A stretch of 64,000 nt of DNA from assembly GCA_937146725.1 (NCBI GenBank), contig CAKZRU010000111.1, positions 1 to 64,000 on the forward strand, in the 5' to 3' direction. The notes beneath the pieces are model-generated. The model saw only the letters and a list, made by a program, of their open reading frames with translations, did not search any database and was not told the DNA's origin. The translations under genes and the position numbers were made by a program. Shown piece by piece: positions 18,575-36,037 of this stretch (positions are counted from its first letter, which is position 1; each line of letters starts with the position of its first letter). The DNA comes from an uncultured Myxococcales bacterium (GTDB lineage Bacteria > Myxococcota_A > Bradymonadia > UBA7976 > VGTA01).

Positions 18575-20107
18575 CTATTCGTTATCTAACTCTCCATCGA
18601 CCGTAGCTTCTGAATCTGAATCTGCTTCTGTTTCTTCCCCTTCTTCACCTGCCGCGCCTTCTTCCGATTCATTGCTAGCTGCTTCAGAATCAATTTCCTC
18701 ACCCGCCTCTAAGTCGTTTAGTTCAGATTCGCTGTCTTGCACTAGATCTTGGGTTTCTTCCAAAGCTGATCCCGGATTAGACCTAAAGCCTTTATTCGCT
18801 TTAAAGCCCACATTTTTCTTCACTTGAGTGCCTTTTCTTACTCGGTTGCGTCGGCCAGCTTTAATTCGATCACGACGAGATTTATTTTTTAAGCGATTTT
18901 TTTGGCGAGCTTTTTTGGCAGGCCGATTACGACGACGTTTAGTGGGTCGCTTAGCTTGTTTGTTATTTCGTGCATTACGATTTAAGCTACGTCCTTCCTT
19001 GCTGTATGGACTATTTTTAGCTGCACTTGCCCTAGGTTTTTTAACTCGCCCTTTAAGTAAAATTCCTACATCATAGCCACCATCTCCTCGTCGGGTAAAG
19101 TAGCGTCTTTGTAGGGTAGCAATCGTTTTCACATCAGGATTTTTACGAATAAACTCTGCTGATAAATCCATAGAAATATGAAGATTTAAAACAGTTCTAG
19201 CCCAAGCCCCAAAAAGCTTCAAATGGCCTGTAAACTCTCCCTTTATGTCTTCACTTTGTGATTTAAACTCCACAAGATCTAGTTGCCCTCGATCTAATTT
19301 CAGCTGTGCACTTAGATCTCCTAAGTTGACAGCCGGTAATTCTAGGGCACTTACGGTGGTCGCCTCTGTCTGAAGACCCGTTCCCTCAAGTTTAAGTGAT
19401 GCACTGCTTTTTTTGATTTGTAGCCGCCCAAGCTTACCAATCACAATATGCCCTTCACCTTGACTGGTTAGCTTGCCTTTTAGGGGCATAGGTAAGGAGG
19501 ATTGCAAAAAGTCATTTTCCCCAAGGTCAATCTCATTCAACTTATATGAGAAAGCAAGATCTTGTGCTCTTTTACTTGCACCTAAGCCATCCCATTGAGT
19601 GCCTACACTAAACGATAAGTATTGAGGCTCCTCCTGATTAGAGTCATCATCCGCTACACCACAGGCAAACAGCTTGCTTTGGCCACTCAACTCGATGTGC
19701 CCACCCAAAACAATACTCAGTACATTACCTAATCCCAAATCGATTTGGCTACTTTGCAAACATAGTTTGGGCGCTGGCGCCGGCGCTTTCATTGGCTCTG
19801 GTTCAGCCTGCCCTGCTTCTTTAGCTGCACGACGAGCTTTGAGATAAGCTCTAAACTTATCCCATTCAAGTTCTTGTTCAGGACTTAAAGGTAAAGTGAG
19901 TTCAACACTTGCCAATGATAGCCCCAGAACACCTTGTAATTCTAAGTTCTGGATCTCACACTTAGCACCAGTTTTTAAGCTTAGAAATTTCTCAATCGTC
20001 GGCTTTAGCTCATTTAAATCTATCGTCAGACGTAAAGCAACTAAGGTAAAAACGACAAATGAAATGAAATATAAAATTGCTTTGGAGGCCTTAAGAAGAA
20101 GGTTCAT
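18575..20107 (-). CDS. gspN: Type II secretion protein N with a long charged C-terminal tail
   Basis: Last gene of the gsp operon; its start overlaps the gspM stop by 4 bp, implying coupled translation. One N-terminal membrane helix (ILYFISFVVFTLVALRL) is followed by an AsmA-like periplasmic beta region of ~330 residues, as in GspN proteins, which accompany the inner-membrane platform. The gene is about twice the usual length. Residues ~340-430 form an extremely Lys/Arg-rich stretch (for example KRPTKRRRNRPAKKARQK) and the last ~70 are Glu/Asp/Ser-rich. The polarity change suggests an intrinsically disordered tail. Its role is unknown; interaction with peptidoglycan, polysaccharide or another protein is conceivable. 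Confidence 0.78.
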   Translation of the reverse strand: MNLLLKASKAILYFISFVVFTLVALRLTIDLNELKPTIEKFLSLKTGAKCEIQNLELQGVLGLSLASVELTLPLSPEQELEWDKFRAYLKARRAAKEAGQAEPEPMKAPAPAPKLCLQSSQIDLGLGNVLSIVLGGHIELSGQSKLFACGVADDDSNQEEPQYLSFSVGTQWDGLGASKRAQDLAFSYKLNEIDLGENDFLQSSLPMPLKGKLTSQGEGHIVIGKLGRLQIKKSSASLKLEGTGLQTEATTVSALELPAVNLGDLSAQLKLDRGQLDLVEFKSQSEDIKGEFTGHLKLFGAWARTVLNLHISMDLSAEFIRKNPDVKTIATLQRRYFTRRGDGGYDVGILLKGRVKKPRASAAKNSPYSKEGRSLNRNARNNKQAKRPTKRRRNRPAKKARQKNRLKNKSRRDRIKAGRRNRVRKGTQVKKNVGFKANKGFRSNPGSALEETQDLVQDSESELNDLEAGEEIDSEAASNESEEGAAGEEGEETEADSDSEATVDGELDNE

Positions 20108-20697
20108 TTGTCTGCCTCCAATTTGTAAGTGGTGACCGCAAGCTTAATAAAGCGTAATTCTTGTCGGTCTTGAGCTGAGGTTCTCATATCAATAGATGTA
20201 ACGCGTACTGGTGAAGACTCTTTTTCGAGTTTTTCTAAAAATCTAGAGAGTTGAGCAAGGTTTGCCGATCTAATGGTCACTTCTTGGGTATAGGCAACAA
20301 CAACTTCAGCTTTTTTTGCTTTACTGCTTAAGTCATCATCTAAAACTCGACGTTTTTCTTTGAAATCATCGATGGTAATCCCTTCGCTTTGGGCATGACG
20401 TTCCATCACTTTACCTAAGTCGATTGAGTTTTGCTTCAGTAGTTTTTGATAGGCCTCACCCTTAGCTCGCAAGATCCGAAATTGCTCTTCACCCGCTTTG
20501 ATTTCAGCAATCCCCTCACGCAAAAACTCTACCCGAGATAATTGTGCTTCTTTAGAAGCTGCTAATTGGTCAAAAATAAAAAAGGTCGCCACTCCTACAA
20601 AAATAAGAACGAAGGCCAAAAGATAGAGCCTCTCACGAGCAGAGAGCTTGCTATACACACCGTCTACAAATTGTGATGTTAATGATGGATTAGACAT
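20104..20697 (-). CDS. gspM: Type II secretion inner-membrane protein GspM
   Basis: 197 residues: a short cytoplasmic N-terminus, one helix (LYLLAFVLIFVGVATFFIF, ~25-45), a coiled coil (KEAQLSRVEFLREGIAEIK), and a periplasmic ferredoxin-like domain, the GspM/PilO plan. GspM pairs with GspL in the inner-membrane platform. It lies 20 bp after gspL and overlaps gspN by 4 bp. Position and topology support the assignment more than sequence identity, which is low in this family. Confidence 0.82.
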   Translation of the reverse strand: MSNPSLTSQFVDGVYSKLSARERLYLLAFVLIFVGVATFFIFDQLAASKEAQLSRVEFLREGIAEIKAGEEQFRILRAKGEAYQKLLKQNSIDLGKVMERHAQSEGITIDDFKEKRRVLDDDLSSKAKKAEVVVAYTQEVTIRSANLAQLSRFLEKLEKESSPVRVTSIDMRTSAQDRQELRFIKLAVTTYKLEADK

Positions 20698-20717: not shown

Positions 20718-22316
20718 TTATTTACACTTGGATGATGCAGTGACTCTAAAGACAGTTCGCTCATCAACCGACTTACTGACCTTGTCTTTTTTGACTCGCT
20801 CTGAAAAACAAGAAGTCTTTTCAACCGCTTCAATCACAGCGCTCACTTCACCTACTGTTGTGGTTTTTCCTCGGAGTTCAAGTGAACCACGACCATTATC
20901 TTTCAGCGCAATCGTCAAACGATCAAGCTCAACTGAAACATCCTTACTAATGAAGCGTGAAAGCTCACCAAGGGTGTCAAAAGCTGATATGTCGGGCACC
21001 AGTACCTTTTGCTCTTTGGCTGAGTTCACTTTGAACTTAATCGTATCAAGCTCAAGACCTTCTTTACCTAAAAGAGATACCCCCAGCTGCTCAACTTCAC
21101 TTTCCAACAAGGTGATTTCATCGATCGCTGTCATCTGCTCATAGTATAGGCGAGTTCCCTGTAAAGCGATGATACAGAATAAAGCAATACTTACTGCTAC
21201 AGATAAGCTTCGCAAGATGCCAGCATCTCGCGCATAAGTATATTCATCTTTACGGAAGTTTATACTTTTTGTGTATAACCTTTGGGCTAAGCCGTCGGCC
21301 ATGACATAGGCTAAGTAATCTTGTGAACCATCACGACCTGTACTCAAATTCGTTGATATTTCAGCAGGATAATCTAAACGCTGAACAGGCATATTTAATG
21401 ATTGCTCAAGATAGGTTTCAATCCCATTCAACTTAGATGACCCTCCGGTTAAGTAAACCTTCTCAATGGGCGTTTCTTGAGTCATCTCAGCAAAGGCTAA
21501 AGAACGAATCAACTCGGCCTTTAATGGAAGCAATGCTTCTTCAATTGCCTCATTAATTCTTTCAGCAAGCTGTTTTTGATTACCATCTTCCATTAAAGCT
21601 AAGGTATCTTTTGCAAGCCATTTGGCTTCACTGAGCTTACCGACTTCCGCCATTTCATCATCTACTTTGAACACTTCAGCGAGTTTTTTGGTAATCTGCA
21701 GTCCACCAACATCACAACGTTGCAAATATTTAACCGAACCGCCTAAATAAAAGGTCCACTCCGCTCCACTTGCGCCGATGTCGAGTATGACCTGATGGGC
21801 TAAGTCATTATATTGGGACTTGGGTACAATCGCTTCGGTATATAAACCACCTAAAGTCAATACCTTGGGATCTATTTGAGCCGCAAAGCACTGACCCATA
21901 AATTGCTCAAATTCTTCGCGTACAGCATAAGCGATCAATAACTCTAATTCGTCATCATCGGTCCCAATAATTTGGTAATCATAGAAGATTTCATCAATTT
22001 CAAAGGGAAGTAAGTCTTCTAATTCTCCCGGTAAAATCTCATCGACGAGCTTCATTTGAGCGATTGGTAAGCGGTGAATCAACACAGAAGTGAGTTGACG
22101 AGGCAAAGCCAAGGCATAAGACTCGTGAGTCAATTGTTTGGCTTCTAGTAATTCGTACGCTGTTCTTAACTGTGCTTCTGTCTGACTCTCTCCATCAATT
22201 GGCAGTATTTCCCGATAAAAAGCACCCGTAAATTCACGGCTACTAAAGCCTACATCCATGAGCCAAGCACGTACTTCTCTTTGGCCTAAATCGAGGCCAA
22301 TGATCTTGGTTGCCAT
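20718..22316 (-). CDS. gspL: Type II secretion protein GspL with PilM-like actin fold
   Basis: 532 residues. The cytoplasmic actin-like domain starts MATKIIGLDLGQREVRAW (phosphate-1-type loop) and contains VILDIGASGAEWTFY and VYLTGGSSKLNGIETYL, as in PilM/GspL. A single membrane helix follows at ~375-395 (SVAVSIALFCIIALQG), then a periplasmic ferredoxin-like domain. GspL bridges the GspE ATPase to the platform. It sits 4 bp from the gspK stop. The PilM-like character of the first domain is well kept, whereas many GspL proteins are more degenerate. Confidence 0.87.
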   Translation of the reverse strand: MATKIIGLDLGQREVRAWLMDVGFSSREFTGAFYREILPIDGESQTEAQLRTAYELLEAKQLTHESYALALPRQLTSVLIHRLPIAQMKLVDEILPGELEDLLPFEIDEIFYDYQIIGTDDDELELLIAYAVREEFEQFMGQCFAAQIDPKVLTLGGLYTEAIVPKSQYNDLAHQVILDIGASGAEWTFYLGGSVKYLQRCDVGGLQITKKLAEVFKVDDEMAEVGKLSEAKWLAKDTLALMEDGNQKQLAERINEAIEEALLPLKAELIRSLAFAEMTQETPIEKVYLTGGSSKLNGIETYLEQSLNMPVQRLDYPAEISTNLSTGRDGSQDYLAYVMADGLAQRLYTKSINFRKDEYTYARDAGILRSLSVAVSIALFCIIALQGTRLYYEQMTAIDEITLLESEVEQLGVSLLGKEGLELDTIKFKVNSAKEQKVLVPDISAFDTLGELSRFISKDVSVELDRLTIALKDNGRGSLELRGKTTTVGEVSAVIEAVEKTSCFSERVKKDKVSKSVDERTVFRVTASSKCK

Positions 22317-22319
22317 GCC

Positions 22320-23813
22320 TTATTCCTCTCTGTAATAGAGTGTACGAACAACTGTGCCATCCTGCTTTAGAACGGCGGTAATTTTACGAGTCATTTCTCC
22401 GAGTTTACCATTTACTGTCAACCGGAAAAGCTGATCTTTAGTCCCCAGGCTTTGTTGCATTTGCTGCCATTGCACATCATTTTGAATGAACTGATATTGT
22501 AAGTCAGTCATTTGATAACGGGTCATTAAAATCATGAGGGGATCAATCATCTGCCCCATCCCAGAGGACATAATCATCTTCATGGGGTCTTGAGCAATGG
22601 AGGTAAAGGCTTGGGGCGTTCTAAAAAGTTGCCCCAAAAAATTACCATTCATCATCTTATTGAACTGAAGAACAGTACGCGCATCAACGATCATTCTTGC
22701 ATAACGCATAAACAGGTCACGCCCCATGTCTGCATTTTGGGATTCCTCACCACAAGCATATGACTCTGTGATCTGAAAACGTTGGGTATGAGCTTGCATG
22801 AGGGCTGCTAAAACCTCAGCTGAAGCGGTATTCATATTGATTTTATCGCTGGCATGCACACTCACTCTATCCTTTAAGAAAAAATACAGTTCATCGCTAA
22901 TGCCTTTAACTAAGCGAAGTTCTTCCACACTATCAAACATACTGTCCTTGCTTCGATAGCGCTCGTTACCATCACGATAATATGAGTCTTCGCCTTCTCC
23001 GGCCCCCTCTTGAATCATCCAAGTATAAGGATCAATGCTGACTCGGTTATCATCCGGATCGACCCAATCAATCAAATTACCAATGACATCAGCTCTTGTG
23101 TACCGTTGACCATCCGGCTGTTCGGTTTCAAAAACATGGGCAATAGAAGGATCACAAAACAATGACCTTAGTTTACGCACAGTGGCCACCCGTTGCGGGC
23201 AATTTAAGGGATTATAGCTAGGAGCTGCTTGACGAGTTTGTCGTGCTTGTACCTGTTTTTGCTGTTCTTCAATCAGAGCTAGATTAGGAGGAGGACAGGC
23301 TAAGCCAACCAGGCCAATGTAGGAAGCTTCTGGCTTGATTTCAACCTCATCAACCTCGCCTTGATGAAGCTTTAGACCATCTATTCCCTCTAAGGGCACC
23401 GACAGGCCACCCACAGGCAAATCTAGATTACCGCGGATAAAGATTCCAAGCATCATGTTACACAGCTTTTCTAAGTCCATCATGGACTGAGCTGCCCCCA
23501 TCATGCCCCATGCTTTACGGTCAAGACAGGCTCTGGTCATGTCCAAAGCGGTATCGGCCAGAATATTGGCTCTGACTTCATCTCGGATATAAGTGCCCTC
23601 ATTAAGATGCAAGGTAGATTGGCGAGAAAAATCAACCACAACTAATGATAAAACTGTAACCGCCGTTAGTGCGATCAGTAAGGCGATTCCACTTTCACCT
23701 TCGGCTCGATGATGTCGATGCTTAATGTGCGCTTTAACGTTAGACTCTTGTCTTTTTTGTATCTTTTGCTTTGCTTGAGCTTCTGATCGCTTTGTTTTTG
23801 ATTTAATCCACAT
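22320..23813 (-). CDS. gspK: Minor pseudopilin GspK
   Basis: 497 residues. A long basic N-terminal leader precedes the pseudopilin segment ESGIALLIALTAVTVLSLVVV; Glu at the normal +5 position is replaced, as is typical for GspK, the pilus-tip pseudopilin. The large inserted domain carries WVDPDDNRVS (the Asp-rich calcium or metal loop) and helix-hairpin-helix-like NMNTASAEVLAAL, both GspK hallmarks. The start is the ATG at 23813, 4 bp after the gspJ stop with AGAGG overlapping the gspJ end; the longer open frame from 23882 lies inside gspJ. GspI-J-K form the tip complex. Confidence 0.9.
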   Translation of the reverse strand: MWIKSKTKRSEAQAKQKIQKRQESNVKAHIKHRHHRAEGESGIALLIALTAVTVLSLVVVDFSRQSTLHLNEGTYIRDEVRANILADTALDMTRACLDRKAWGMMGAAQSMMDLEKLCNMMLGIFIRGNLDLPVGGLSVPLEGIDGLKLHQGEVDEVEIKPEASYIGLVGLACPPPNLALIEEQQKQVQARQTRQAAPSYNPLNCPQRVATVRKLRSLFCDPSIAHVFETEQPDGQRYTRADVIGNLIDWVDPDDNRVSIDPYTWMIQEGAGEGEDSYYRDGNERYRSKDSMFDSVEELRLVKGISDELYFFLKDRVSVHASDKINMNTASAEVLAALMQAHTQRFQITESYACGEESQNADMGRDLFMRYARMIVDARTVLQFNKMMNGNFLGQLFRTPQAFTSIAQDPMKMIMSSGMGQMIDPLMILMTRYQMTDLQYQFIQNDVQWQQMQQSLGTKDQLFRLTVNGKLGEMTRKITAVLKQDGTVVRTLYYREE

Positions 23814-23817
23814 GGGC

Positions 23818-24558
23818 TTACCTCTTATACTCAACGATACTTTGCACCGGACGTCTGATCTTGGGTGCGGCCTGTCCAACAAAACGAATGCTCAAATTAC
23901 CTTCAACCCGTTCAAGTTCTAAAGTAATCCTTACTCGGGCTGGCAAAAGTTGATTGTCATCACTATCCCAACTACGTTGCCAAGCATCATCCCCAATTTC
24001 TTTGGCATCATCCCAATATTCAAGCTTAAAGCTTTTAACTCCATCGACAACCGGCCAAGTACTTCCACCTCGATCTGGACGATCATCAACTCTACGACTT
24101 TCACGACGAAACAGAGTATAACCGCGATAGGGTGTTTTATAGGAAGGACGCTTTAAAAAGTAGGCAACTTCCGCTTGGTCTGACTCACGTCCCTCAGCTC
24201 TTAATCTGACATGAGCTGTATTCGCAAAATAGATTTCGTCTTCTTCTCCCAAAAAGCGAGTCAACATGGCCGGCCCTTCTTCTTGAACTTCTTCCGGAGG
24301 CTGAGCTTTAAGAAAGGCCATGCGGATTTCACGAGTAATGCGGCGCATCACCTGCCGACCTTCATGATAACGCTCACTAAGTACCGTCATGTTATCTTTG
24401 ACTCTAAAGCTACGAGACATGGTCACAAAAAGTGATACAGAAACCACCGATAAAAGGCCAACTGCCAAAATGACTTCGAGCAGGGTAAAACCCGCTTGGG
24501 TCTTTCTCGTTTTATCTTTTATTGTCCAAGATTGATTCTGATTAGGTTTGGAGCTCAT
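23818..24558 (-). CDS. gspJ: Minor pseudopilin GspJ
   Basis: 246 residues. The prepilin cleavage motif is AG^FTLLEVILAVGLLSVVS with Glu+5 present, and the hydrophobic helix is followed by a beta-rich domain ending in VGQAAPKIRRPVQSI. Start and stop overlap or abut neighbours: a 4-bp overlap with gspI and a 4-bp gap to gspK. It acts in the pseudopilus tip complex with GspI and GspK. Confidence 0.88.
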   Translation of the reverse strand: MSSKPNQNQSWTIKDKTRKTQAGFTLLEVILAVGLLSVVSVSLFVTMSRSFRVKDNMTVLSERYHEGRQVMRRITREIRMAFLKAQPPEEVQEEGPAMLTRFLGEEDEIYFANTAHVRLRAEGRESDQAEVAYFLKRPSYKTPYRGYTLFRRESRRVDDRPDRGGSTWPVVDGVKSFKLEYWDDAKEIGDDAWQRSWDSDDNQLLPARVRITLELERVEGNLSIRFVGQAAPKIRRPVQSIVEYKR

Positions 24559-25328
24559 TTATTCAATGCCTCCATACCTTGGTTGATCATTTGATCTTCC
24601 ATTTGGTTTTTATTCTCATTGGCCAAGCTATCTTCAGGAGGTGGTTCACCACCACTAGAATCTGAGCCAAGTGAGGTCACAAAGCGTTCGATCAGTACCT
24701 TGCGCGTTTGCGTTTGATCACGCCATGAGACTTCGATGCGTACCTTACGAATTTTGTCTTCTAGATTTTGTAAAAATAATGGGATCACCTGTCCAGCCGC
24801 TTGTAATTGTTGCTGTGCGCGAGCCATGCCATTTGCCATAGCTTCTTGATCCATCCCGGCGCCTGCCCCCAAACCTCCTAAAGCACCTAAACCACCACCT
24901 TCACCCGCACCAGCAAGCATGGCTGATAAGCGTTCGGTTAATTGGTTAGCTGCCCCTTCTTGAAGCTCTAGCTTAAAGGCACACACCTTCCAGCGATATT
25001 CTTGGACCCCACGTCCACGAAAACCTTCGCTTTTAAAATCTCCATCTTCGCAGTTATCATAGATATCTACGCTATCGTTTAAGATTTTATGCTTCACATC
25101 AAGAAGCTTACCCTCAAGTAAAAAGATCGCCTGACTCACTCGATTACTATAATCGATCGATTGAATAATGACGCCTTGATGGCCAAACAAAGCCACCAAA
25201 GAAAAAGACAGGATCGCCATGGCGATTAGGATTTCCAAAAGGCTGAAACCTCGCTCTGCTTGACTTGCTAACGCATGAGACTTCGCAGAATTGACCAATT
25301 TTTTCAGTGTTTGACGAGCTCTGATCAT
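24555..25328 (-). CDS. gspI: Minor pseudopilin GspI with Gly-rich insertion
   Basis: 257 residues, roughly twice the usual ~125. Prepilin motif RG^FSLLEILIAMAILSFSLVALFG. The usual small domain appears in two parts (RVSQAIFLLEGKLLDVKH and IRKVRIEVSWRDQTQTRKV) separated by an insertion rich in Gly and Ala (GAGEGGGLGALGGLGAGAG), and the protein ends in an acidic Asn/Gln-rich tail. Overlaps of 4 bp with gspH and gspJ show tight coupling. GspI nucleates the tip complex; the insertion is unusual. Confidence 0.85.
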   Translation of the reverse strand: MIRARQTLKKLVNSAKSHALASQAERGFSLLEILIAMAILSFSLVALFGHQGVIIQSIDYSNRVSQAIFLLEGKLLDVKHKILNDSVDIYDNCEDGDFKSEGFRGRGVQEYRWKVCAFKLELQEGAANQLTERLSAMLAGAGEGGGLGALGGLGAGAGMDQEAMANGMARAQQQLQAAGQVIPLFLQNLEDKIRKVRIEVSWRDQTQTRKVLIERFVTSLGSDSSGGEPPPEDSLANENKNQMEDQMINQGMEALNK

Positions 25329-26047
25329 CGACCTTCCTCCTCAAACTTTTCGGGTTCACCAAAGTAGCGATCGGGATCGACTACGCCGACTTCACGCTTC
25401 ACTTTACCAGTCAATGGTGAAAGGATTAAGGTATAAGCACCACCATCATCAATGCTTTCCCCTTGTCCAATAACAACCATGGCCGGTTCGGCAAAGCCAT
25501 TAGGGAAAAAGTGTATATATGCCTTGCCAGTTGTAAAAACCTCATCTTGATTGGCAGTAAACACACTTCTCAGATTTAGGCCTTTATCAAGCTTAATTTC
25601 CGCAACTACAGCATCTTTGGCATACCGAGGTCGCTCTTTAATGGGACGACCTTCTTCTTTTGCTTCTTCGATGGCCTCTTTTTCTTCTTCGGTCAAGGCA
25701 TTTGGGTCGACATTTTCTTCTCGTTTTTTACTCGCCAAAAAGATTGGCTTGTCAGATGACTCAACCCAATATCGATTTCCCTCCAAATCCAAAACCATTC
25801 TGACAAAGCGTCCATGACTGACTGCATAGCCAAAGCTATGACGCAAGGCGGCAGCAAGCTTATTAGTTGCCACTCGAATCTTGGTATTTGAAATCTGCGA
25901 GAAAGTTGAAACCGCAATACCGGTTAAACCACCCACAATCGCAATCACCAATAAAAGCTCTAACAAGGTAAAGCCCATAGATTTCGCTCGCCTCGGCAGC
26001 GATACGCAAGTCCAGCGCGAGACACTGTGAGTAGATGAGTGAGTCAT
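25325..26047 (-). CDS. gspH: Minor pseudopilin GspH
   Basis: 240 residues from the ATG at 26047, which has AAAGG upstream; the open frame begins nine codons earlier without support. Prepilin motif MG^FTLLELLLVIAIVGGLTGI, then a beta-rich domain with an inserted charged stretch (ALTEEEKEAIEEAKEEG). GspH links the tip complex to the GspG shaft. It lies between gspG (65 bp gap) and gspI (4-bp overlap). Confidence 0.86.
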   Translation of the reverse strand: MTHSSTHSVSRWTCVSLPRRAKSMGFTLLELLLVIAIVGGLTGIAVSTFSQISNTKIRVATNKLAAALRHSFGYAVSHGRFVRMVLDLEGNRYWVESSDKPIFLASKKREENVDPNALTEEEKEAIEEAKEEGRPIKERPRYAKDAVVAEIKLDKGLNLRSVFTANQDEVFTTGKAYIHFFPNGFAEPAMVVIGQGESIDDGGAYTLILSPLTGKVKREVGVVDPDRYFGEPEKFEEEGR

Positions 26048-26112
26048 GGTTACAACTAACCTTTGAAAGAACAAAGAAGAAATTTGGCGGTAAGACTTAA
26101 ATTCGCCTTAGC

Positions 26113-26550
26113 TTATTTTTTGTGACCTTGAGGATAAACATCATCCTTGGTTCCCTTTGAACCATCAGGGCCCGTTGAGAAGATCACAAAAGGCTTATCA
26201 CCTGAAGAACGCTTATAAATCAGCTCATTATTCCAAGAGTCCTTGGGCATGCTCTTTACATATGGGCGAAAACCACCAGGAGGATTGATCAGATCTTTGA
26301 GGCTGTCTGGATACTCAGAAACTTGGGTGTAGTACATTTGTACCGCTTGCTCAACCGAAGCGATCTTAGTTTGAGTCGTGCCAATCTTAGCATTGTCAAA
26401 GGTACCCATAAGGTTGGTGACCACCACTGTTGCCAAAAGACCTAGAATGGCCACAACGATCATGATCTCTAAAAGAGTCATACCTTTTTGGCCATCACGA
26501 AGGGCTTGTTTTTGAGCAAGAAGACGTTGATGTGTACGAGAATGTGACAT
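26113..26550 (-). CDS. gspG: Major pseudopilin GspG
   Basis: 145 residues, the normal size. Prepilin motif KG^MTLLEIMIVVAILGLLATVV; conserved YPDSLKDLINPP, then PKDSWNN, and the C-terminal calcium-site segment GPDGSKGTKDDV, all diagnostic of GspG. It forms the pseudopilus that pushes substrates through GspD. AGGAG precedes the ATG. The prepilin peptidase (GspO/PilD) needed for processing is not in the window. Confidence 0.94.
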   Translation of the reverse strand: MSHSRTHQRLLAQKQALRDGQKGMTLLEIMIVVAILGLLATVVVTNLMGTFDNAKIGTTQTKIASVEQAVQMYYTQVSEYPDSLKDLINPPGGFRPYVKSMPKDSWNNELIYKRSSGDKPFVIFSTGPDGSKGTKDDVYPQGHKK

Positions 26551-26584: not shown

Positions 26585-27811
26585 TTATTGAATGAACTCA
26601 TTCATTTGAAGAATTGGCATTAAAACAGCAAAAACCACCACAGCGATGGTGCCACCCATAAAAACAATCATAAGTGGCTCTAAAAGAGTGGTGAGACGAG
26701 AGACTTTGTTTTCCACTTGGCTCTCATAGGTTTCGGCGACAACTCCAAGCATTTCCTCTAGAGCTCCTGAGCGCTCACCAACCGAAATCATATGAATCAA
26801 CATATTGGGAAAACGTCCACTTTCTCTAAGTGGCGTTGCCAAAGCATGACCTTCTTTGACCGCAACTCGAGCCTTTTCTACCGCCTCAAGTAAGATCTGA
26901 TTCTCAAGAACATTTTTGGTAATCTCTAATGCGGTAAGCAAAGGGACTCCAGAAGTTAAAAGAGTCGCTAAAGTCTTGGTAAAACGAGATAAGTCGACCA
27001 ATAAAAAGAGCTCGCCAAAAATAGGAAACTTAAGCTTTAAATTATCCCATTTTCGCCGTCCATGCTCTTTTTTGATGTAACGCTTAAAAAGTTGAAGTGA
27101 GAGAATTCCACCTACAATAAAAAGCAGTAGGTAATCTTGTAACAGATGACTGATCATAATGATCAAACGCGTAACGAATGGAAGAGTTTGCCCACTATCA
27201 GCAAAAATTTGGGTAATCTGTGGAATCACAAACACAAATAAACCGACTAAAATAAGTGCACCGACACTGATCATGATGACCGGATACATCATAGCGCTGA
27301 CAATGTTTTGGCGAAGCTTAACCGAGGCCTCTGAAAACTCTGCTAAGCGGACTAAGATAGCGTCTAGGGTACCGGAAGCCTCGCCGGAACGAACCATACT
27401 AGAATACAAGGGTCCAAAAACATCTCGATATTGGTCAAGTGAATGAGCAAAACTTACCCCCTCGTTTACGTCGGAACGTACCTTTACCAAAATCTTTTTA
27501 AGCTTAGGTTTATCAACCTGCTCAGTACATGCCGCAAGAGCGTCTGCTAAGGGAATACGCGCCTTTACAAGCGTTGCTAATTGTCTTGTAAATAAGGAAA
27601 TATCTTGGGGCGTAATCTTCTCAAACATGGCGTTAAAGTCGATTTCAGCACTTAAAATACTTTGTCCTGCTTTACGACCAGCCCCGATTTGCGTGACATA
27701 AATCCCACGCTGCTTTAAAAGCTGACGCAGCATTTTAGGGCTGTCAGCTTCCATGGTGCCTTTTACTTTTTTTCCACGTTTATCAACGCCAGCATAGTCA
27801 TAATTGGGCAT
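26585..27811 (-). CDS. gspF: Type II secretion inner-membrane platform protein GspF
   Basis: 408 residues with the duplicated GspF domain: LFTRQLATLVKARIPLADAL in the first copy and FTKTLATLLTSGVPLLTALE in the second, and three membrane helices (for example IMISVGALILVGLFVFVIP and IVFMGGTIAVVVFAVLMPI). It begins PNYDYAGVDKRGKKVKGTM, the normal GspF opening. It contacts GspE and GspL. It lies between gspE and gspG. A paralogue, PilC, is at 46567. Confidence 0.94.
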   Translation of the reverse strand: MPNYDYAGVDKRGKKVKGTMEADSPKMLRQLLKQRGIYVTQIGAGRKAGQSILSAEIDFNAMFEKITPQDISLFTRQLATLVKARIPLADALAACTEQVDKPKLKKILVKVRSDVNEGVSFAHSLDQYRDVFGPLYSSMVRSGEASGTLDAILVRLAEFSEASVKLRQNIVSAMMYPVIMISVGALILVGLFVFVIPQITQIFADSGQTLPFVTRLIIMISHLLQDYLLLFIVGGILSLQLFKRYIKKEHGRRKWDNLKLKFPIFGELFLLVDLSRFTKTLATLLTSGVPLLTALEITKNVLENQILLEAVEKARVAVKEGHALATPLRESGRFPNMLIHMISVGERSGALEEMLGVVAETYESQVENKVSRLTTLLEPLMIVFMGGTIAVVVFAVLMPILQMNEFIQ

Positions 27812-27832: not shown

Positions 27833-29731
27833 TCAGTCGAAGGAAAGTAAATCGTCTTGGGTAACGCGTAAAACTTCAGCGATACTTGTTTCACCACTAA
27901 AGACCTTACTTGTTCCGTCGTCACGTAAAGTCAACATGCCCTTGGTGATCGCGCGCTTCTTAATGGTATTACTATCCACATTCGCCATAACCAGTGCACG
28001 AATCTCATCATCAACGACCAACAACTCATAAATACCGGTTCGTCCACGATAGCCATCACCATGGCAATCTTGGCAACCACGTCCCTTATAAACCACTCCG
28101 GACGATTCTTGTAAAAAGCGCTCACGGGTGTAGCCCAATTGGCTCAGCTCAATATCGGTAGGTACCACCGGCTCTTTACATGAGGAACATAAGGTACGGA
28201 CTAAGCGTTGAGCCATCATGCCGATCACCGAAGATGAAATTAGGAAAGGCTCCACGCCCATATCAACCAAACGGGTAACCGCACCGGCCGAGTCATTGGT
28301 GTGAAGGGTACTAAATACCAAGTGACCTGTTAACGAGGCTTGAATCGCAATTTCAGCGGTTTCTCGGTCACGAATCTCACCAATCATCACCACATCAGGG
28401 TCCTGACGAAGGATCGAACGCAAACCGGCCGCAAAGGTTAAGCCAACCTTACTATTCACCTGTGTTTGACTAATTCCGCCGATTTGGTATTCCACCGGAT
28501 CTTCTACGGTGATGATATTACGCGTTGGACTATTAATCTTTGCAAGACTTGCATAAAGAGAGGTTGTTTTACCAGATCCAGTTGGTCCGGTGACCAAGAT
28601 GATACCGTATGAGCGAGTAATTAACTCATTGATATTAGTGAGTACTTGATTGCCCATACCAATATCACTTAGATCTCGTAAAACAGAAGTCTTGTCGAGA
28701 ATACGCATAACCAAGCGCTCACCATGTGCGGTCGGTAAGGTTGATAAGCGAATATCGATTTCTTTACCGGCCACTTTAAGCTTGATACGTCCATCCTGTG
28801 GAATACGTTTTTCAGCAATATCCAAGCCCGCCATGACCTTAATACGAGAAGCTACCGGTGCATGAAAACGCTTAGGAGGAGGTGTAGAAAAAGCATCTTT
28901 AAGTATACCATCTACACGAAAGCGAATAGAGATTTCCCGTTCAAAGGGCTCGATGTGAATATCTGATGCTCGGTCTTTAATCGCATCCGAAAGAATCGCA
29001 TTTACCAAGCGAATAATTGGCGCTTCATCATCTGTATCGATAATGTCGATATCGATATCATTAAGGCCGGCATCAACATCCACCACCTGCTCTGCATCGA
29101 TTTCATCAATAACCTGTGAAGCAGCTGCTCGGCGGTCAAATATCTTATTAATCGCATCAATTAGGGGTTGCTCTGGGATCAAAACCGGTTCAATGGGTTC
29201 AGAAAACAGACGATAAAAAGCGCTTAAAGCATTTTGCGTTAAGGGATCAGCAATGCCCACTAATAAGCGCCCATCCTCTTGCCATAAAGGAAGAATCTTA
29301 TGTTCTTTGGCATACACGACTCGTAAAGATTGCGAGTAATCTAGATTTACGCGATCTAGATCAATCTCTGCTAAAAAGCGAAGCCCAATCACCTTGGCTG
29401 CCGCCTCAAGCCACTCAAGTTCACTCACTTCCCTCGTTTTTAAGATCACTTCTTTGGGCGACACAAAGCTTGGGGCTTCCGGAACCTCATCCAAAGAAGG
29501 CTCATTGAGCTCACTGATATCTGTGACATCACTCAAGTCTGCTAGGTCATCTAGTGCAATCATATCTAAGCTGTCATCGAGCTCATCAATGCTATTCAAG
29601 GCGTGCTTAGGAACAATGTTAAGTGAGTTTCCAAACAGTACTGATTGGTCAGGACAAGCTTTTTGAAACAAGTCATCCGAAATCTGTCCTTGCTTGTGAA
29701 GCTGTTGAGCAACTTGACGTTCAAATCTCAT
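27833..29731 (-). CDS. gspE: Type II secretion ATPase GspE
   Basis: 632 residues. An extended N-terminal domain contains an acidic stretch (IDELDDSLDMIALDDLADLS). The ATPase core carries Walker A GPTGSGKTTSLYA, the Asp box ITVEDPVEYQ, Walker B DPDVVMIGEIRD, and the His box TGHLVFSTLHTND. A C-terminal zinc module has CSSC and CQDC pairs, as in classic GspE. It powers pseudopilus assembly through GspL and GspF. Between gspD and gspF in the standard order. The acidic insert in the N-terminal domain is longer than usual. Confidence 0.94.
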   Translation of the reverse strand: MRFERQVAQQLHKQGQISDDLFQKACPDQSVLFGNSLNIVPKHALNSIDELDDSLDMIALDDLADLSDVTDISELNEPSLDEVPEAPSFVSPKEVILKTREVSELEWLEAAAKVIGLRFLAEIDLDRVNLDYSQSLRVVYAKEHKILPLWQEDGRLLVGIADPLTQNALSAFYRLFSEPIEPVLIPEQPLIDAINKIFDRRAAASQVIDEIDAEQVVDVDAGLNDIDIDIIDTDDEAPIIRLVNAILSDAIKDRASDIHIEPFEREISIRFRVDGILKDAFSTPPPKRFHAPVASRIKVMAGLDIAEKRIPQDGRIKLKVAGKEIDIRLSTLPTAHGERLVMRILDKTSVLRDLSDIGMGNQVLTNINELITRSYGIILVTGPTGSGKTTSLYASLAKINSPTRNIITVEDPVEYQIGGISQTQVNSKVGLTFAAGLRSILRQDPDVVMIGEIRDRETAEIAIQASLTGHLVFSTLHTNDSAGAVTRLVDMGVEPFLISSSVIGMMAQRLVRTLCSSCKEPVVPTDIELSQLGYTRERFLQESSGVVYKGRGCQDCHGDGYRGRTGIYELLVVDDEIRALVMANVDSNTIKKRAITKGMLTLRDDGTSKVFSGETSIAEVLRVTQDDLLSFD

Positions 29732-29797: not shown

Positions 29798-32734
29798 TTA
29801 CTCTTCAGCAAAAGGATCACTGAGGTCACTCTCTTTTGGCTGTGCATTAGCTGCGGCCTTAGTATCCGCTGGCTTAGAAACTTCAACCTTGATGGCTGGC
29901 TTTTCTTCCTTCGCCTCTGCTTGAGTAGCCGTAGTCATCACCTTTGTACCTTTGTTAAGCTGATCTTTGGATACGAGAGGGTTGAGTGAAGGCACTTCCA
30001 CTCCATCAAGTTCTTGAGGTAAAGGTGGGCGTTCTTCTTGCTTTTTAAGTTGCTCTAGAAGCTCGGTCTCTTTTTCGGCGGCCTTAAGCGATTGGTTAAT
30101 CGCCTCTAAAAGACCATGTTTTTTACCAAAATCTAAACCAAGTTTAAGCTCACTGCCTTCTTGTTGGAAACGAGCAACAAACTCTCGATGTTCTTCAAGC
30201 TTGCGTTGGAAGATTGCTCTAAAGTCATCTGGCCCTTCAATCACATGCGGTGTAAGTAACAGAAGAAGATTTCTGCGTTCACGATCTCGTTTGGTTGTTC
30301 TAAAGAAATAACCAATTACCGGAATCTCACCCAACCATGGAATAGCACTTACGTTATTGATTTGTCGGGTTTTTTGGAGTCCACCAACCACAACTGTATT
30401 TTGGTCTTGAACCACAACTGTACTCTTAATGCTACGCTTAGAAGTTGTTGGTCCAACTTGGGGATCAATACTTTCGATTTCTTCGATCACTTGATCGATT
30501 TCAAGGGTCACAAAGTTTGCAGCATTAATGCGAGGGGTAATCTTTAAGGTTAAAGCCACATCTTGTCGTTGCACATTTACAGTTGGGAAGAAACCACCCA
30601 AGCCACCCATGGCTCCACCTAGACGTCCACCAGCGCCTCCTAAACCACCCAAACCACCAAGGCCACCCATACCGCCAGCAATACCGGCAATAAATGGTAC
30701 ATTCGAACCTACAACAATCTCGGCTTCTTCATTATCTGTGGTCAAGATATGTGGTGTTGACATAATGTTTACGTCGTCGCTTTTGGAAAGCGCCTGCATA
30801 ATCGCTCCAAAAGAGGGCAAATCTAAACCGGCAATTTCAACACCACTTGCGGGTCCTTGAGTCGCAACAGCAAGACCGGTTAAAGTCGCAGCACTACTTA
30901 GGTCAAAAGATTTGGTTGAACCGGGTTGATTACTAAATACTAAAGGTACAGTTTCACCAGCCACAGTGCCTTCACTCGCACCATGTAAAGAAATACCAAA
31001 GTCACGCTGATTACGAATAGACACTTCCATTACCACTGCTTCAATGAATACTTGGCGACGAGGCTTATCAAGAATATCAATCACCTTTTTAAGGGCCAAG
31101 TAATCCTTAAAGCTTGCTGTAATCACCAAAGCATTAGTGTCCTCATCTGCAGTTACAGATACCTCACCCTCAAAGAGAGCGGCTGAGTTGGCTCCGGCAG
31201 AAGCGCCTCCTTTACTGCTGCGCTTAGCTTGCGGTTTTCTACGTGTTGTACCACTATTTCCACCTCTGCTTCGCTGTTCTTGACTTAAGCTACTTAAAAC
31301 ATTGGACAAGTCAGCTGCTTTAGCGTGATTTAGCTGATGAATATGAACCTGTCCATCACCTTCAACCGGAATATCGAGTTTAGCAATCAAAGATTTAACC
31401 CGTGCATAACTTCGAGCATTAGCCTTGATTAAAAGGCGATTGGTACGCTCATCTGCAATAACCTTACTGACGCGAGCATCAAGTTCCGAGTCGCCCACGC
31501 TGCTGCTTTCAGCGCTGGAAGATCTTTTCGCATTTTTAATGCGCTTACGATTTCGATTATTGGTCTTTCGATTACGATTAGTATTGGGGCGAGGACGGTT
31601 ATTCTTTTCTTCGCTGACCTCAAAAACCTCTTGAATCTTTTGAGCAATATCAGTCGCTTCTGCATGTAGGATTTGATAAGTCCAAAGCTGTTCTTCACCG
31701 CCTGGCACATCCAAATCTTTGATCAGAGCAAGTAACTTACGAAGGTTACTTGCTAACTCAGTGATAATCATTGAGTTGTTGGGTTGGTAAATGATTATTT
31801 GAGCATTATTACTTGCCAGTTTAGTAATGATTTCATTCACTTCTTGTGCATCAACATGCTTAAGTTGCACAATTTGAGTCACCATTCGATCTTCGCGAGG
31901 GGGCGTGCTTTCACTGTCTTGGAAGGGGTCAGAGGAACGGGCAAAGTCCTTGATTTCAATAATTCTCCAAAACTTCCCTTGGCGAGAAATCGTCAGTCCG
32001 TTGGCCTCTAAGGCGGTTAGAAAGGCTCGATATGCCTCATCTGCACTAACCTTTACGGGTGAATAAATAGTAATTTTTTTACCCTTCAAAGGCTTTGATA
32101 AAATGATGTTTCTCATCTTGATACAGGCGATGAGCTTAACCACAGCTTCTAATTCTTCATCAACAATATCTAGGTGAAAACGAGCATTCTTTTTGGGCTT
32201 CACATATCCACATTTTTTAATGAAGTCTTCGCTCAAGTTATCTTCTGGCGCCTTACCGCTTTCAGAAATCACTTGGCTTTTATCTCCGCTTGACTTAGGT
32301 GCAGCTAAAGCTCTGTCATCTTTGGCGGGCTTAGGTTGATTGACTTTAGAATTTCGCTGACTACGTGCTTTTTGAGCCTGTTTTTGTCGTTTTTGCTTTT
32401 TTTCTCGCTCAGCTTGCTTACGCTCTTGAATCTTACGAAGCGCTTCTGAACGACGCTGAGCTTGATCCCGTTGACTAACGACCTGCTTTACCTTAGGACT
32501 AATCTTGGGCATAACTCTTGGCGCAATGGGAATCGGTGGTAAAACCTTATTTTGTGCCCAAGCCTCTTGTTGACTAAACGACCCAAGGATTAAGGAAAGT
32601 AAACTAAGATTCAGCAGAGTCAAAATCAAGTAATGCTTTGTCTTAGACTGCTTTGGGGCCAAAACAGATAAATGCTTATTCTTTGGCTGAAGAAGACTTG
32701 GTATGGACTCTATTGATCGATGCAAGTTTAACAT
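29798..32734 (-). CDS. gspD: Type II secretion outer-membrane secretin GspD
   Basis: 978 residues, longer than the usual ~650-750. After a signal-like helix (LILTLLNLSLLSLILGSF) comes a ~120-residue Lys/Gln/Arg-rich region, then N0 (LDIVDEELEAVVKLIACI), N1-N3 repeats (VQLKHVDAQEVNEIITKLA; IHQLNHAKAADLSNVLSSL) separated by basic low-complexity linkers, and the secretin core (RRQVFIEAVVMEVSI; TPHILTTDNEEAEIVVGSNVPF; VVVGGLQKTRQINNVSAIPW). A Gly-rich loop (GMGGLGGLGGLGGAGG) sits in the gate region. The C-terminus is charged and extended. It is the outer-membrane channel for folded substrates. The start could be one of several ATGs. Confidence 0.93.
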   Translation of the reverse strand: MLNLHRSIESIPSLLQPKNKHLSVLAPKQSKTKHYLILTLLNLSLLSLILGSFSQQEAWAQNKVLPPIPIAPRVMPKISPKVKQVVSQRDQAQRRSEALRKIQERKQAEREKKQKRQKQAQKARSQRNSKVNQPKPAKDDRALAAPKSSGDKSQVISESGKAPEDNLSEDFIKKCGYVKPKKNARFHLDIVDEELEAVVKLIACIKMRNIILSKPLKGKKITIYSPVKVSADEAYRAFLTALEANGLTISRQGKFWRIIEIKDFARSSDPFQDSESTPPREDRMVTQIVQLKHVDAQEVNEIITKLASNNAQIIIYQPNNSMIITELASNLRKLLALIKDLDVPGGEEQLWTYQILHAEATDIAQKIQEVFEVSEEKNNRPRPNTNRNRKTNNRNRKRIKNAKRSSSAESSSVGDSELDARVSKVIADERTNRLLIKANARSYARVKSLIAKLDIPVEGDGQVHIHQLNHAKAADLSNVLSSLSQEQRSRGGNSGTTRRKPQAKRSSKGGASAGANSAALFEGEVSVTADEDTNALVITASFKDYLALKKVIDILDKPRRQVFIEAVVMEVSIRNQRDFGISLHGASEGTVAGETVPLVFSNQPGSTKSFDLSSAATLTGLAVATQGPASGVEIAGLDLPSFGAIMQALSKSDDVNIMSTPHILTTDNEEAEIVVGSNVPFIAGIAGGMGGLGGLGGLGGAGGRLGGAMGGLGGFFPTVNVQRQDVALTLKITPRINAANFVTLEIDQVIEEIESIDPQVGPTTSKRSIKSTVVVQDQNTVVVGGLQKTRQINNVSAIPWLGEIPVIGYFFRTTKRDRERRNLLLLLTPHVIEGPDDFRAIFQRKLEEHREFVARFQQEGSELKLGLDFGKKHGLLEAINQSLKAAEKETELLEQLKKQEERPPLPQELDGVEVPSLNPLVSKDQLNKGTKVMTTATQAEAKEEKPAIKVEVSKPADTKAAANAQPKESDLSDPFAEE

Positions 32735-32800
32735 ATATTTTTCTCGATTAAGTCGTGCAGTTGAATGCTGAGATCAGTGAAGCTAAAAGTTTATGTCAGA

Positions 32801-33757
32801 TTATTTAATGTTGTACTCAAAGGAACTCATCTTACCTCGACGTTCTAGGTCAAGATTAAGATTATCGCTACTCTTGAGCTTTTCAAAAAGTCCAAGAGCT
32901 TTGTTAATAGAGGTTAATTCCTCACCACCCACCGATTTGAGTACATCTCCGGATTTCAACCCAAGATGTCGGAAGATAGAGTTTGAACGAATCCCAACCA
33001 CTTTAAATCCGGCTGGCTTGCCTCGCTTATAATGAGGAATTACCCTTGCTTGTCGAACTAAGTTATCAAGGTCATTAAGTTGCTCATCAAGCATGGCTCG
33101 ATCAACCTCAAAGCGTCCTGGTGACACTTCTTTAATTCCATCTTTAAACTTATTTCCCTTAGACTTGTTTCTTTTACGCTTTTTAGGAGGCGTATAACGC
33201 TTGGGTTTACCTGCATTCTTTTTGCCTAAGTTTAGACATTCAAACTGTCCTTGATTGGCAAGAACAACTCGCTGTCCATTACCTGACCATTGAATCGCTA
33301 CGATTTCTTGGTCTTCAATGGTATCAGTAATCCGAAAGATTCGATCACTTCCATCAACATTGATCATTGCATATGAGGCCGAAGGAGGCTCTGCTACCAT
33401 GGTCACTTGCAAGGTGACTTTAAGCTTACTTTCTTCGCAATCTTCATAGGGCTGTGGCAACTGGCCAATAGGCTTTTTATCTTCCTCTTGCTCCGCTTTG
33501 CTTTTCTCTTCTTCGGGGCTGGGCGGATTTGCATTAAATAAGTTTCGTTGATCGATTTCATTGGCCCAACGAGTTCGACTTGTCTGGCTTAACTTAGACC
33601 GTTTTATTGCTTTTCTAGGAAGCTTTGTATTTTTGACCAATGCCTCTTGGGCACCTTGTAGGACAAAATGTCCAACAAGTTGACTGGCAGAGTGAGCAAC
33701 AATCGCGATGAGGCCTAGGTGTAACACCCAGAGATACCTCTTAAGATATGCTTCCAT
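32801..33757 (-). CDS. gspC: Type II secretion protein GspC with C-terminal PDZ domain
   Basis: 318 residues, first gene of the operon. One membrane helix near the N-terminus (YLWVLHLGLIAIVAHSASQL), the HR domain (residues ~100-180, KLKVTLQVTMVAEPPSASYAMI), a basic linker, and a PDZ-like end (GFKVVGIRSNSIFRHLGLKSG, DVLKSVGGEEL). GspC couples the platform to GspD and helps select substrates. The ATG at 33757 is chosen because GGGAG lies 10 bp upstream; the longer open frame lacks support. A sigma-54 promoter match lies ~135 bp upstream. Confidence 0.9.
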   Translation of the reverse strand: MEAYLKRYLWVLHLGLIAIVAHSASQLVGHFVLQGAQEALVKNTKLPRKAIKRSKLSQTSRTRWANEIDQRNLFNANPPSPEEEKSKAEQEEDKKPIGQLPQPYEDCEESKLKVTLQVTMVAEPPSASYAMINVDGSDRIFRITDTIEDQEIVAIQWSGNGQRVVLANQGQFECLNLGKKNAGKPKRYTPPKKRKRNKSKGNKFKDGIKEVSPGRFEVDRAMLDEQLNDLDNLVRQARVIPHYKRGKPAGFKVVGIRSNSIFRHLGLKSGDVLKSVGGEELTSINKALGLFEKLKSSDNLNLDLERRGKMSSFEYNIK

Positions 33758-33892
33758 GTCATCAACTCCCGAGAACAAGTAATAAGGAATAAGAAACAAA
33801 AGGAGAGTCTATATACAGCGAACTCAGCCTAAGATCAAAAGATCTATACAATTAATACCGAAAAAACTAGTGATATTAATCTTGTACAAATA

Positions 33893-33908
33893 AGCATGAA
33901 GTATGCCA
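33893..33908 (-). promoter_or_regulatory. Candidate sigma-54 promoter of the gsp operon
   Basis: On the minus strand TGGCATACTTCATGCT has the required GG and GC dinucleotides exactly ten bases apart and keeps TGGCA and TGC of the consensus TGGCACG-N4-TTGCW. Transcription would start near 33882, about 125 bases before the gspC ATG. Confidence 0.55.
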
Positions 33909-34023
33909 ACTTCACACATCCAGACCTTTTAGACTTAATCATACAACAATAGTCAAATTAAATTGATCACTTACCAATCCTAACTTTGTTGAACAAAGTA
34001 AACACTCCTTCTTTTTATTGAGT

Positions 34024-34061
34024 GACAAATTGTCATTTAGTCGCTTTTGTGACAAATTGTC
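34024..34061. promoter_or_regulatory. Two palindromic activator sites upstream of gspC
   Basis: GACAAATTGTC occurs twice, 34024-34034 and 34051-34061, each a GACA-N3-TGTC palindrome, with centres 27 bp apart. Their centres lie 122 and 149 bp upstream of the -24 GG, the usual place for enhancer sites of NtrC-type activators. The neighbouring activator gene is the natural candidate binder. Confidence 0.55.
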
Positions 34062-34090
34062 TTTTATGAGTGAGTATGCCCACATAATTG

Positions 34091-34154
34091 TGCATCAGAT
34101 CAAGTGTGCATCAGATCAAGTGTGCATCAGATCAAGTGTGAATCAGATAGAGTA
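34091..34154. repeat. Four tandem 16-bp repeats
   Basis: TGCATCAGATCAAGTG is repeated exactly at 34091, 34107 and 34123, with a degenerate fourth copy at 34139-34154. It lies just past the end of the activator gene and upstream of the palindromes. The 16-bp period is not a whole number of helical turns. It may be a protein-binding array or simple slippage product. Confidence 0.9.
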
Positions 34155-34184
34155 AAACTTAGTCCTTAACGATCTCAATCATCC

Positions 34185-35588
34185 TCAATCTTCTTCAAAA
34201 GTAGCAAGTTTCCTGTAAATCGTTCGGGTTGCAATCCCTAGAAGCTGTGCTGTTTGACGTTTATCACCATTGGTAAATGCAAGCGTTTTCATAATTAACT
34301 TTCGCTCGACTTCTTGCAGAGGAGTGCCCAATGGAACGGCAAAAAGGGCCGGATCGAAACTCTTCCCTCCCTTTTTAAAATCGCTAGACTCTAAGTTCGC
34401 TAAACCTTTGTAGATTTCACTAGGTAAGTCACTCGGCTGAATACTTGTTTCCTGACCAAGCACAATTGCTCGCTCAATCGTATTTTCGAGCTCTCTCACA
34501 TTTCCAGGCCATTGATATTCTTTTAAAAGTGTCATTGCCGCCGGACTAATACTCTTGAGCTCTTTTTGATGTCGCTGACTGAATTTTTTTAGAAAATGCT
34601 CACAGAGCAAAGGAACATCATCATATCTCTCTCTAAGAGGTGGTAGGGTTAAAGCAATCACCTTAAGCCGATAATAAAGATCTTCACGAAAGTCATTTTC
34701 TTTAACCGCATCAGCTAAGTCGATATTTGTGGCCGCAATGACTCGGCAGTCGGATCTGAGGGTCTTGTTCCCACCTACTGTTTCATATTCTCCACTCTGT
34801 AAAACACGTAAAAGTTTGACTTGCAAATGTAAGGGCATTTCACCGATTTCATCCAAAAATAAAGTACCGCCATGGGCGCGGCTAAAGCGCCCTTCTCTTT
34901 GACTATGAGCTCCGGTAAATGCACCTTTTTCAACCCCAAAAAGCTCTGCTTCGATGATCCCCTCAGGTAAGGCACCACAGTTAACTGCAATAAAGGGCCC
35001 TTGAGCTCGCGAAGAACGCTCATGAATCATTTTGGCAAACACTTCTTTTCCGGTTCCGCTTTCACCCTGTAATAAAATCGTCGCTTGTGATGGAGCCGCT
35101 TGCAACGCGAGTTCAAGAACCTTTCTAAAAGTAGGTGCATGGCCCACAACGCCCATTTGTAGACTCGCTGCTGTTCTCGCCTGAGCAAGAGCCTGCTTGA
35201 GCTCTTGGTTTTCTTGAATTAAGCTGACTCGTTCAAGAGCTCTTTGAATCACTCGCTCAATTTCGGCTCGGCGAAAAGGCTTTGTAATAAAATCATAAGC
35301 CCCACGACGCATTGCCTCAACGGCTCGTTCAATGGTTCCATAGGCGGTCATGATCACAATCTCGGCCTGTGTTTGGAGTTCTTTAAGCTCAACAAGCAAA
35401 TCCAATCCGTCAATATCAGGAAGCATCAAATCGCTTAGGATAATGGTAAAGTTTTTATTTTTACACAGCTCAAGTGCTTCTTGGCCTCTTGGTATGCCGG
35501 TGACATCCAAGTTCATCTTTGTAAAAATCTTAACTAAACTCGCAAGATGTGAGGTATCGTCATCAATAATTAGTAAGCTTGGTGACAT
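34185..35588 (-). CDS. NtrC-family response regulator, sigma-54 activator (PilR-like candidate)
   Basis: 467 residues in three domains. Receiver: LLIIDDDTSH acidic pocket, phospho-acceptor Asp in LSDLMLPDIDG, Thr in VIMTAYG, Lys in ITKPF. AAA+ domain: Walker A GESGTGKEVFAKMIH, the sigma-54-contacting GAFTGA in GVEKGAFTGAHSQ, Walker B GGTLFLDEIGEMPLH, and arginine-finger region NVRELENTIERA. Fis-type helix-turn-helix at the end: DKRQTAQLLGIATRTIYRKL. All elements of an active enhancer-binding protein are intact. No kinase is adjacent; the only kinase in the window is PilS at 44749, whose operon lacks PilR. The gene precedes gspC in the same direction, with palindromes and a sigma-54 promoter between. 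The ATG at 35588 is chosen, with GGAG about 12 bases upstream. Confidence 0.92.
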   Translation of the reverse strand: MSPSLLIIDDDTSHLASLVKIFTKMNLDVTGIPRGQEALELCKNKNFTIILSDLMLPDIDGLDLLVELKELQTQAEIVIMTAYGTIERAVEAMRRGAYDFITKPFRRAEIERVIQRALERVSLIQENQELKQALAQARTAASLQMGVVGHAPTFRKVLELALQAAPSQATILLQGESGTGKEVFAKMIHERSSRAQGPFIAVNCGALPEGIIEAELFGVEKGAFTGAHSQREGRFSRAHGGTLFLDEIGEMPLHLQVKLLRVLQSGEYETVGGNKTLRSDCRVIAATNIDLADAVKENDFREDLYYRLKVIALTLPPLRERYDDVPLLCEHFLKKFSQRHQKELKSISPAAMTLLKEYQWPGNVRELENTIERAIVLGQETSIQPSDLPSEIYKGLANLESSDFKKGGKSFDPALFAVPLGTPLQEVERKLIMKTLAFTNGDKRQTAQLLGIATRTIYRKLATFEED

Positions 35589-35701
35589 AAAATACAAAGT
35601 CTCCGATTTCTTAGGGGTTCATCTTGCATTTAAACACTTTTTAAGTTAAAAGCATTTCTCTAAATAAGTATTAATAAGTTATTTGCACTAGGAGTTACGA
35701 C

Positions 35702-35938
35702 ATGAAAGCGGATAAGCAACCGAACTACAACCCCGTTATTTTTGTTGATGGCGAGCACGAAATTATCACTCGTTCAGTACTTACCTCAAAGGAAACTCGT
35801 GACATTGATGGTGTCACTCACTACGTGATTCCTGTTGAAATCTCAAGCTACACTCACCCTTTCTTCTCAGGTAAGACTCGTCTTCTTGATACCGAAGGTC
35901 GCGTCGAGAAGTTCAACAAGCGTTATAACCTCGGCTAA
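35702..35938 (+). CDS. rpmE2: 50S ribosomal protein L31 type B
   Basis: 78 residues, the normal size for type B L31. It contains [18 protein letters not shown] and the signature [20 protein letters not shown]. It lacks the CxxC zinc motif of type A L31, so it is the zinc-independent form. In several bacteria that form replaces the zinc form under zinc limitation through Zur; I do not see a convincing Zur box here. AGGAG precedes the ATG. It stands alone. Confidence 0.95.
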
Positions 35939-36037
35939 GCTACATAACGATCAATCTTGGCATAAATCTCTGATCATATGAACTAAGGGTCATGCTCCAA
36001 AAGCTATATCCTTATCATCTCATAATTACGTAAAGCG

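Follow-up and report, generated by a model that had tools for sequence, protein, structure and literature searches.

A predicted sigma-54-dependent promoter module of the type II secretion operon, conserved with its NtrC-type activator in the Myxococcota

The window analysed here (the whole stretch of 64,000 nucleotides) holds on its minus strand a type II secretion gene set running from gspC to gspN, in order and with short gaps, from 33757 down to 18575, and, upstream of gspC, the gene of an NtrC-type activator. Read 5' to 3' on that strand, the succession is: activator, 16-bp tandem repeat, two GACAAATTGTC palindromes, TGGCATACTTCATGC, leader, gspC. The features are:

34185..35597, minus strand: NtrC-type activator (receiver, sigma-54 AAA+ domain with GAFTGA, Fis-type HTH DKRQTAQLLGIATRTIYRKL), probable Nla4 orthologue
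34050..34062, unstranded: distal predicted enhancer palindrome TGACAAATTGTCT, centre 149 bp upstream of -24
34023..34035, unstranded: proximal predicted enhancer palindrome TGACAAATTGTCA, centre 122 bp upstream of -24
33894..33908, minus strand: putative -24/-12 element TGGCATACTTCATGC (GG-N10-GC), predicted +1 near 33882; position conserved in relatives
33758..33882, minus strand: predicted 5' leader, ~125 nt, placed from the position of the -12, with Shine-Dalgarno-like GGGAG at 33770-33766
32801..33757, minus strand: gspC (NF041515 GspC_delta), corrected start ATG 33757
29798..32734, minus strand: gspD, secretin
27833..29731, minus strand: gspE, ATPase
26585..27811, minus strand: gspF
26113..26550, minus strand: gspG, major pseudopilin
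25325..26074, minus strand: gspH-like, below curated cut-off
24555..25328, minus strand: gspI-like, below curated cut-off
23818..24558, minus strand: gspJ
22320..23882, minus strand: gspK-like, below curated cut-off
20718..22316, minus strand: PilM-like protein in the gspL position
20104..20697, minus strand: gspM
18575..20107, minus strand: gspN

The preliminary description of this DNA took the upstream gene to be an intact NtrC-type activator, and its domains confirm this: a receiver (9-117), a sigma-54 AAA+ domain (151-316) with GAFTGA, and HTH_8 (427-465), that is, the AAA+/GAFTGA module, C-terminal Fis HTH and receiver with phospho-acceptor Asp by which NtrC-type enhancer-binding proteins are recognized. 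The same description took a lack of rpoN to count against its sigma-54 reading; the gene is detected in the window's own genome (1e-64), and that objection therefore drops out. No kinase gene adjoins the activator in the window. Autoregulation in the window was considered and rejected: the DNA upstream of the activator has neither a UAS nor a good -24/-12 element. Divergent from the activator, here and in the sister genome, lies the gene of a phosphorylase-superfamily protein (36038-36979; MTAP/PNP-like, below curated cut-offs).

Where does gspC begin? Most likely at ATG 33757, rather than at the TTG 33799 chosen by the ORF finder, which is improbable because the orthologues align from Met 33757, with GGGAG upstream; this choice of start leaves the predicted leader at its ~125 nt. 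We infer that all 12 gsp genes are carried on a single transcript. gspN is followed on its strand by the gene of a CASTOR/POLLUX-type ion-channel protein (16500-18506).

The palindromes and the GG-N10-GC match are present between gspC and the activator as first described, the exact GACAAATTGTC 11-mers occupying 34024-34034 and 34051-34061; the distances of 122 and 149 bp to -24 and the predicted +1 follow from these coordinates. The paired palindrome occurs once in the 5.7 Mb of the window's own genome (backwards control: 0), and the perfect form of the 13-mer TGACAWWWTGTCA has a single place there, the proximal site. (Other features of the intergenic region: a 16-bp unit, TGTGCATCAGATCAAG, is repeated 3.8 times at 34089-34148, past the end of the activator gene and before the palindromes, a tandem repeat that the intergenic region of the sister genome does not show; a further perfect palindrome of non-TGNCA type, ACTTTGTT-C-AACAAAGT, lies at 33983-33999, 38 bp downstream of the proximal site; and Rfam gives no match in 32000-36500.)

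Taken alone, the window's -24/-12 match is no better than chance: at three or fewer mismatches, 109 matches are observed in the window against 125 expected, which is why the promoter motif was not accepted as an argument on its own. The window's element is a weak match, while those of its relatives are strong. It also sits within an inverted repeat, GTGTGAAGT...ACTTCATGC (33894-33917, minus strand), followed by T-rich sequence, and the hairpin at 33917-33894 (about -10 kcal/mol, z -1.9) scores as terminator-like. Does the TGGC...TGC match then simply belong to a weak intrinsic terminator behind the activator gene, with the nearby repeats unrelated to it? We give this explanation next to no credence: the sister genome retains GG-N10-GC at the same place (TGGAATAATATTTGCT), and the arrangement recurs across the phylum with 0 counterparts on the reverse strand. 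Since the match by itself is not significant, it is conservation in relatives that decides the question.

Such conservation of both elements, suggested as a check at the outset, was scored in the 600 bp before gspC, in 37 regions with an adjacent activator and 36 others, with activators that are unlinked or have no demonstrated adjacency. A good -24/-12 element (score of at least 11, with weights that approximate the published consensus) stands on the forward strand in 33 of the 37 adjacent regions, versus 3 on the reverse, and in 29 of the 36 others, versus 1; TGNCA-N3-TGNCA is present in 30/37 and 32/36, respectively. The joint module, defined as TGNCA-N3-TGNCA placed 50-200 bp upstream of a forward -24/-12 element, is found in 28/37 and 32/36 regions, never on the reverse strand in either set (0 and 0), and in 0 and 0.1% of dinucleotide shuffles of the two region sets. 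The palindrome nearest to -24 lies 57-182 bp upstream of it, and 19 of 21 intervals between neighbouring sites measure 40-42 bp, approximately four helical turns; against this usual spacing the 27 bp of the window's pair is an outlier, and the pair of the sister genome (G001) is spaced at 32 bp. Exceptions exist: G002 has one palindrome and lacks a good -24/-12 element, and the joint module was not found in G014 and family f5.

The activator is conserved along with the module. Its orthologues occur through the window's class, Bradymonadia, and its phylum. An orthologue with 45-72% identity is the gene immediately before gspC in the sister genome and in almost every genome of the neighbouring family f2; the class adds families f3 and f6, and the phylum families f14, f18, f30, f32, f34, f37, f38, f41, f42, f43, f46, f53 and f54. 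In a tree with 15 other regulators, the 83 orthologues group as a single clade (SH-aLRT 99), and the recognition helix LGIATRTIYRKL and the phospho-acceptor Asp are conserved among them. GspC itself is present in 74/74 genomes searched, a sample picked mostly for activators that do not adjoin gspC. Directly upstream of one unlinked orthologue (L115; G077, f19) is a histidine kinase gene (HAMP, PAS, HisKA, HATPase), possibly that of the cognate kinase.

These facts bear on the identity of the protein that would bind the palindromes. The promoter might be sigma-54-dependent and yet answer to another NtrC-type regulator, leaving the adjoining activator a bystander. The window's own genome offers no shortage of candidates, with 32 matches (~30 proteins) to the activator's family, many of them other NtrC-type regulators; related regulators of another phylum have similar sites before other operons; and Nla28 of M. 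xanthus has been reported at a type II secretion operon (PMC9765219). We nevertheless regard this as improbable: the adjacency of exactly this orthologue group and gspC recurs in distant families, the orthologues are a single clade with a conserved recognition helix, the module usually lies upstream of the activator gene where the two genes are almost fused, and the Nla28 half-sites, CT[C/G]CG[C/G]AG, are a different motif.

The near-fusions deserve a closer look. In the 600 bp upstream of 84 activators the joint module appears 7 times, and 4 of these are in f32/f34 genomes. In three (L111, L114 and L128) the gap between activator and gspC is 3-23 nt and the module is upstream of the activator; L118 of f34 also has it there. 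With the two genes nearly touching and the module before the first of them, it would seem that the module kept its place at the operon's front. (The remaining occurrences, in L085, L087 and L090, may be due to chance or autoregulation.) Those f3 genomes in which the gap is 32 nt have no module on either side of the activator, so read-through from the activator gene is possible there.

That last case, and the fact that perfect palindromes are common operators, can be turned into a different proposal: the palindromes are operators of an unrelated repressor, and gspC owes its transcription to a sigma-70 promoter or to polymerase reading on from the activator gene. We judge this very improbable, since a strand-specific -24/-12 element lies downstream of palindromes in 60/73 regions, and the palindromes, 57-182 bp upstream of -24, are not over the promoter. 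In the window itself, sigma-70 elements, whose presence at another start site had been named beforehand as a point against a sigma-54 promoter, were looked for in 33700-34250, and none matched.

What the comparison establishes is a set of parts, their spacing, and the fact that activator and cis-module are both kept across the phylum, including genomes in which they are unlinked. These parts are best read as standard enhancer-dependent activation, and the sigma-54 interpretation offered at the outset is supported to this extent: the arrangement of predicted promoter, paired sites and activator is conserved in the phylum well beyond chance, also where the activator gene is unlinked. We consider it highly likely that the region holds a promoter of the gsp operon which depends on sigma-54 (RpoN) and is activated by the NtrC-type response regulator whose gene adjoins it. 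The mechanism would run as follows: 1) the activator's Fis-type HTH, as dimers, would bind the two TGNCA-N3-TGNCA palindromes ~120-150 bp upstream of the -24/-12 element; 2) a signal, presumably phosphorylation of the receiver, would cause the activator to oligomerize; 3) the oligomer would meet sigma-54 polymerase through DNA looping, by way of its GAFTGA loop; 4) ATP hydrolysis by the activator would open the sigma-54 closed complex at the gspC promoter. Activator binding, transcription by sigma-54 polymerase, the start site and the phosphorylation signal are all predicted from the DNA. The conserved arrangement is nevertheless very probably a real, dedicated on-switch of the secretion operon because it recurs nearly phylum-wide, even where the activator gene has moved elsewhere.

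How dedicated is it? The target scans used strict patterns, which would miss degenerate sites. With this limit, TGACAWWWTGTCA was found at 10 places in six genomes (G000, G001 and four of f6), all 10 of them gspC promoters, and TGMCAWWWTGKCA at eight places in eight other genomes of the phylum, 4 of them at gspC. The regulator thus looks almost single-purpose: it appears to have essentially one target promoter. One of the TGMCAWWWTGKCA places away from gspC (L197; G063:C17:6920-7010) has a perfect TGGCACGGGAGTTGCT 70 bp away, and there a strong UAS and -24/-12 element precede the gene of a secreted CFI-box-CTERM protein that weakly matches an M. xanthus family of anchored proteins; this protein is a candidate for a co-regulated substrate of type II secretion. 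Marginal second targets in G177 and G201 were rejected, their -24/-12 elements being weak or absent. Outside the phylum, related regulators (47-48%) with similar palindromes and -24/-12 elements are found in the phylum of G330. There, TGNCA-N3-TGNCA-like sites precede an operon of a receiver protein and an acetyl-CoA-synthetase-like gene (L208, L209, L210), and in G330 itself (L204, C41) two TGNCA-N3-TGNCA sites and TGGCACAAAAATAGCA stand before a small membrane-like ORF, beside a related regulator. Similar sites at an operon other than that of type II secretion suggest a recognition code that is older or wider than its use in secretion.

Does the activator have a counterpart that is already known? 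The nla4 gene of M. xanthus is MXAN_2516 (PMC2875238), and GspD is MXAN2514 (PMC3222651). By numbering, Nla4 is one gene away from gspD and would thus stand where the activator stands; it is NtrC-like, and the numbering fits the activator-gspC-gspD order of other families. On the basis of these published locus tags, the activator's M. xanthus counterpart is probably Nla4, a likeness drawn from locus numbers. Used as a query against genome contigs, the activator returned distant homologues only; no Myxococcaceae genome was recognized in the collections used, and TIGR02268, taken as a Myxococcus marker, has one weak match and 0 over cut-off among 106 near-complete genomes of the window's phylum. 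Nla4 differs from the activator seen here in being known from its ties to (p)ppGpp, growth and development (PMC4048283, PMC7910581), and the open-licence literature searched contained no link between Nla4 and secretion.

A wider proposition can be built on this, and we think its chances evenly balanced: that an ancestral, dedicated sigma-54 regulator of type II secretion is spread across the Myxococcota, with gsp as essentially its sole direct target, occasional secreted substrates aside, and that Nla4 is this regulator. If it is, the growth, (p)ppGpp and developmental defects would arise at least partly from reduced type II secretion. The window's phylum consists mostly of predatory or social bacteria; the type II system delivers surface proteins and probably predation enzymes, and its control in myxobacteria and bradymonabacteria is poorly described. 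A phylum-conserved promoter module tied to one regulator is a specific, testable handle on that control, and it offers a direct target for Nla4, so far studied through broad phenotypes.

The enhancer-dependent mechanism is of a known kind; what is new is that, across the phylum, it is dedicated to type II secretion, and that the activator probably corresponds to Nla4. The preliminary description knew of no such control as an established one for a gsp operon, which is right only in part. Two precedents qualify that remark (PMC9765219, PMC9743648), and both are partial. In the first, Nla28 is reported to act on MXAN2511, a 10-gene type II secretion operon with a putative sigma-54 promoter, with binding demonstrated by gel shift (PMC9765219). 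The resemblance is plain: an NtrC-type protein at a sigma-54 promoter of a secretion operon. But Nla28, studied in development, reads a tandem motif, while the window's sites are TGACAAATTGTC palindromes in which tandem CT[C/G]CG[C/G]AG half-sites of its type were not found; its regulon is put at well over 100 genes, MXAN2511 being one target; and MXAN2511 numbers downstream of gspD, while the module here is at gspC. In the second, RpoN raises expression of T2SS-2 in Plesiomonas shigelloides, which its authors call a first report (PMC9743648). RpoN and a type II secretion cluster are again brought together, but in a gammaproteobacterium and as an effect on expression, direct or indirect, for which that study names no activator, enhancer or promoter. 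In architecture the closest likeness is to promoters of the NtrC/LuxO class, with their paired palindromes ~60-180 bp upstream, -24/-12 element and receiver-AAA+-Fis activator; LuxO sites even have the 5-3-5 layout seen here. The module described here departs from that class in its target operon, in its half-site, TGNCA, and in what appears to be a single target promoter.
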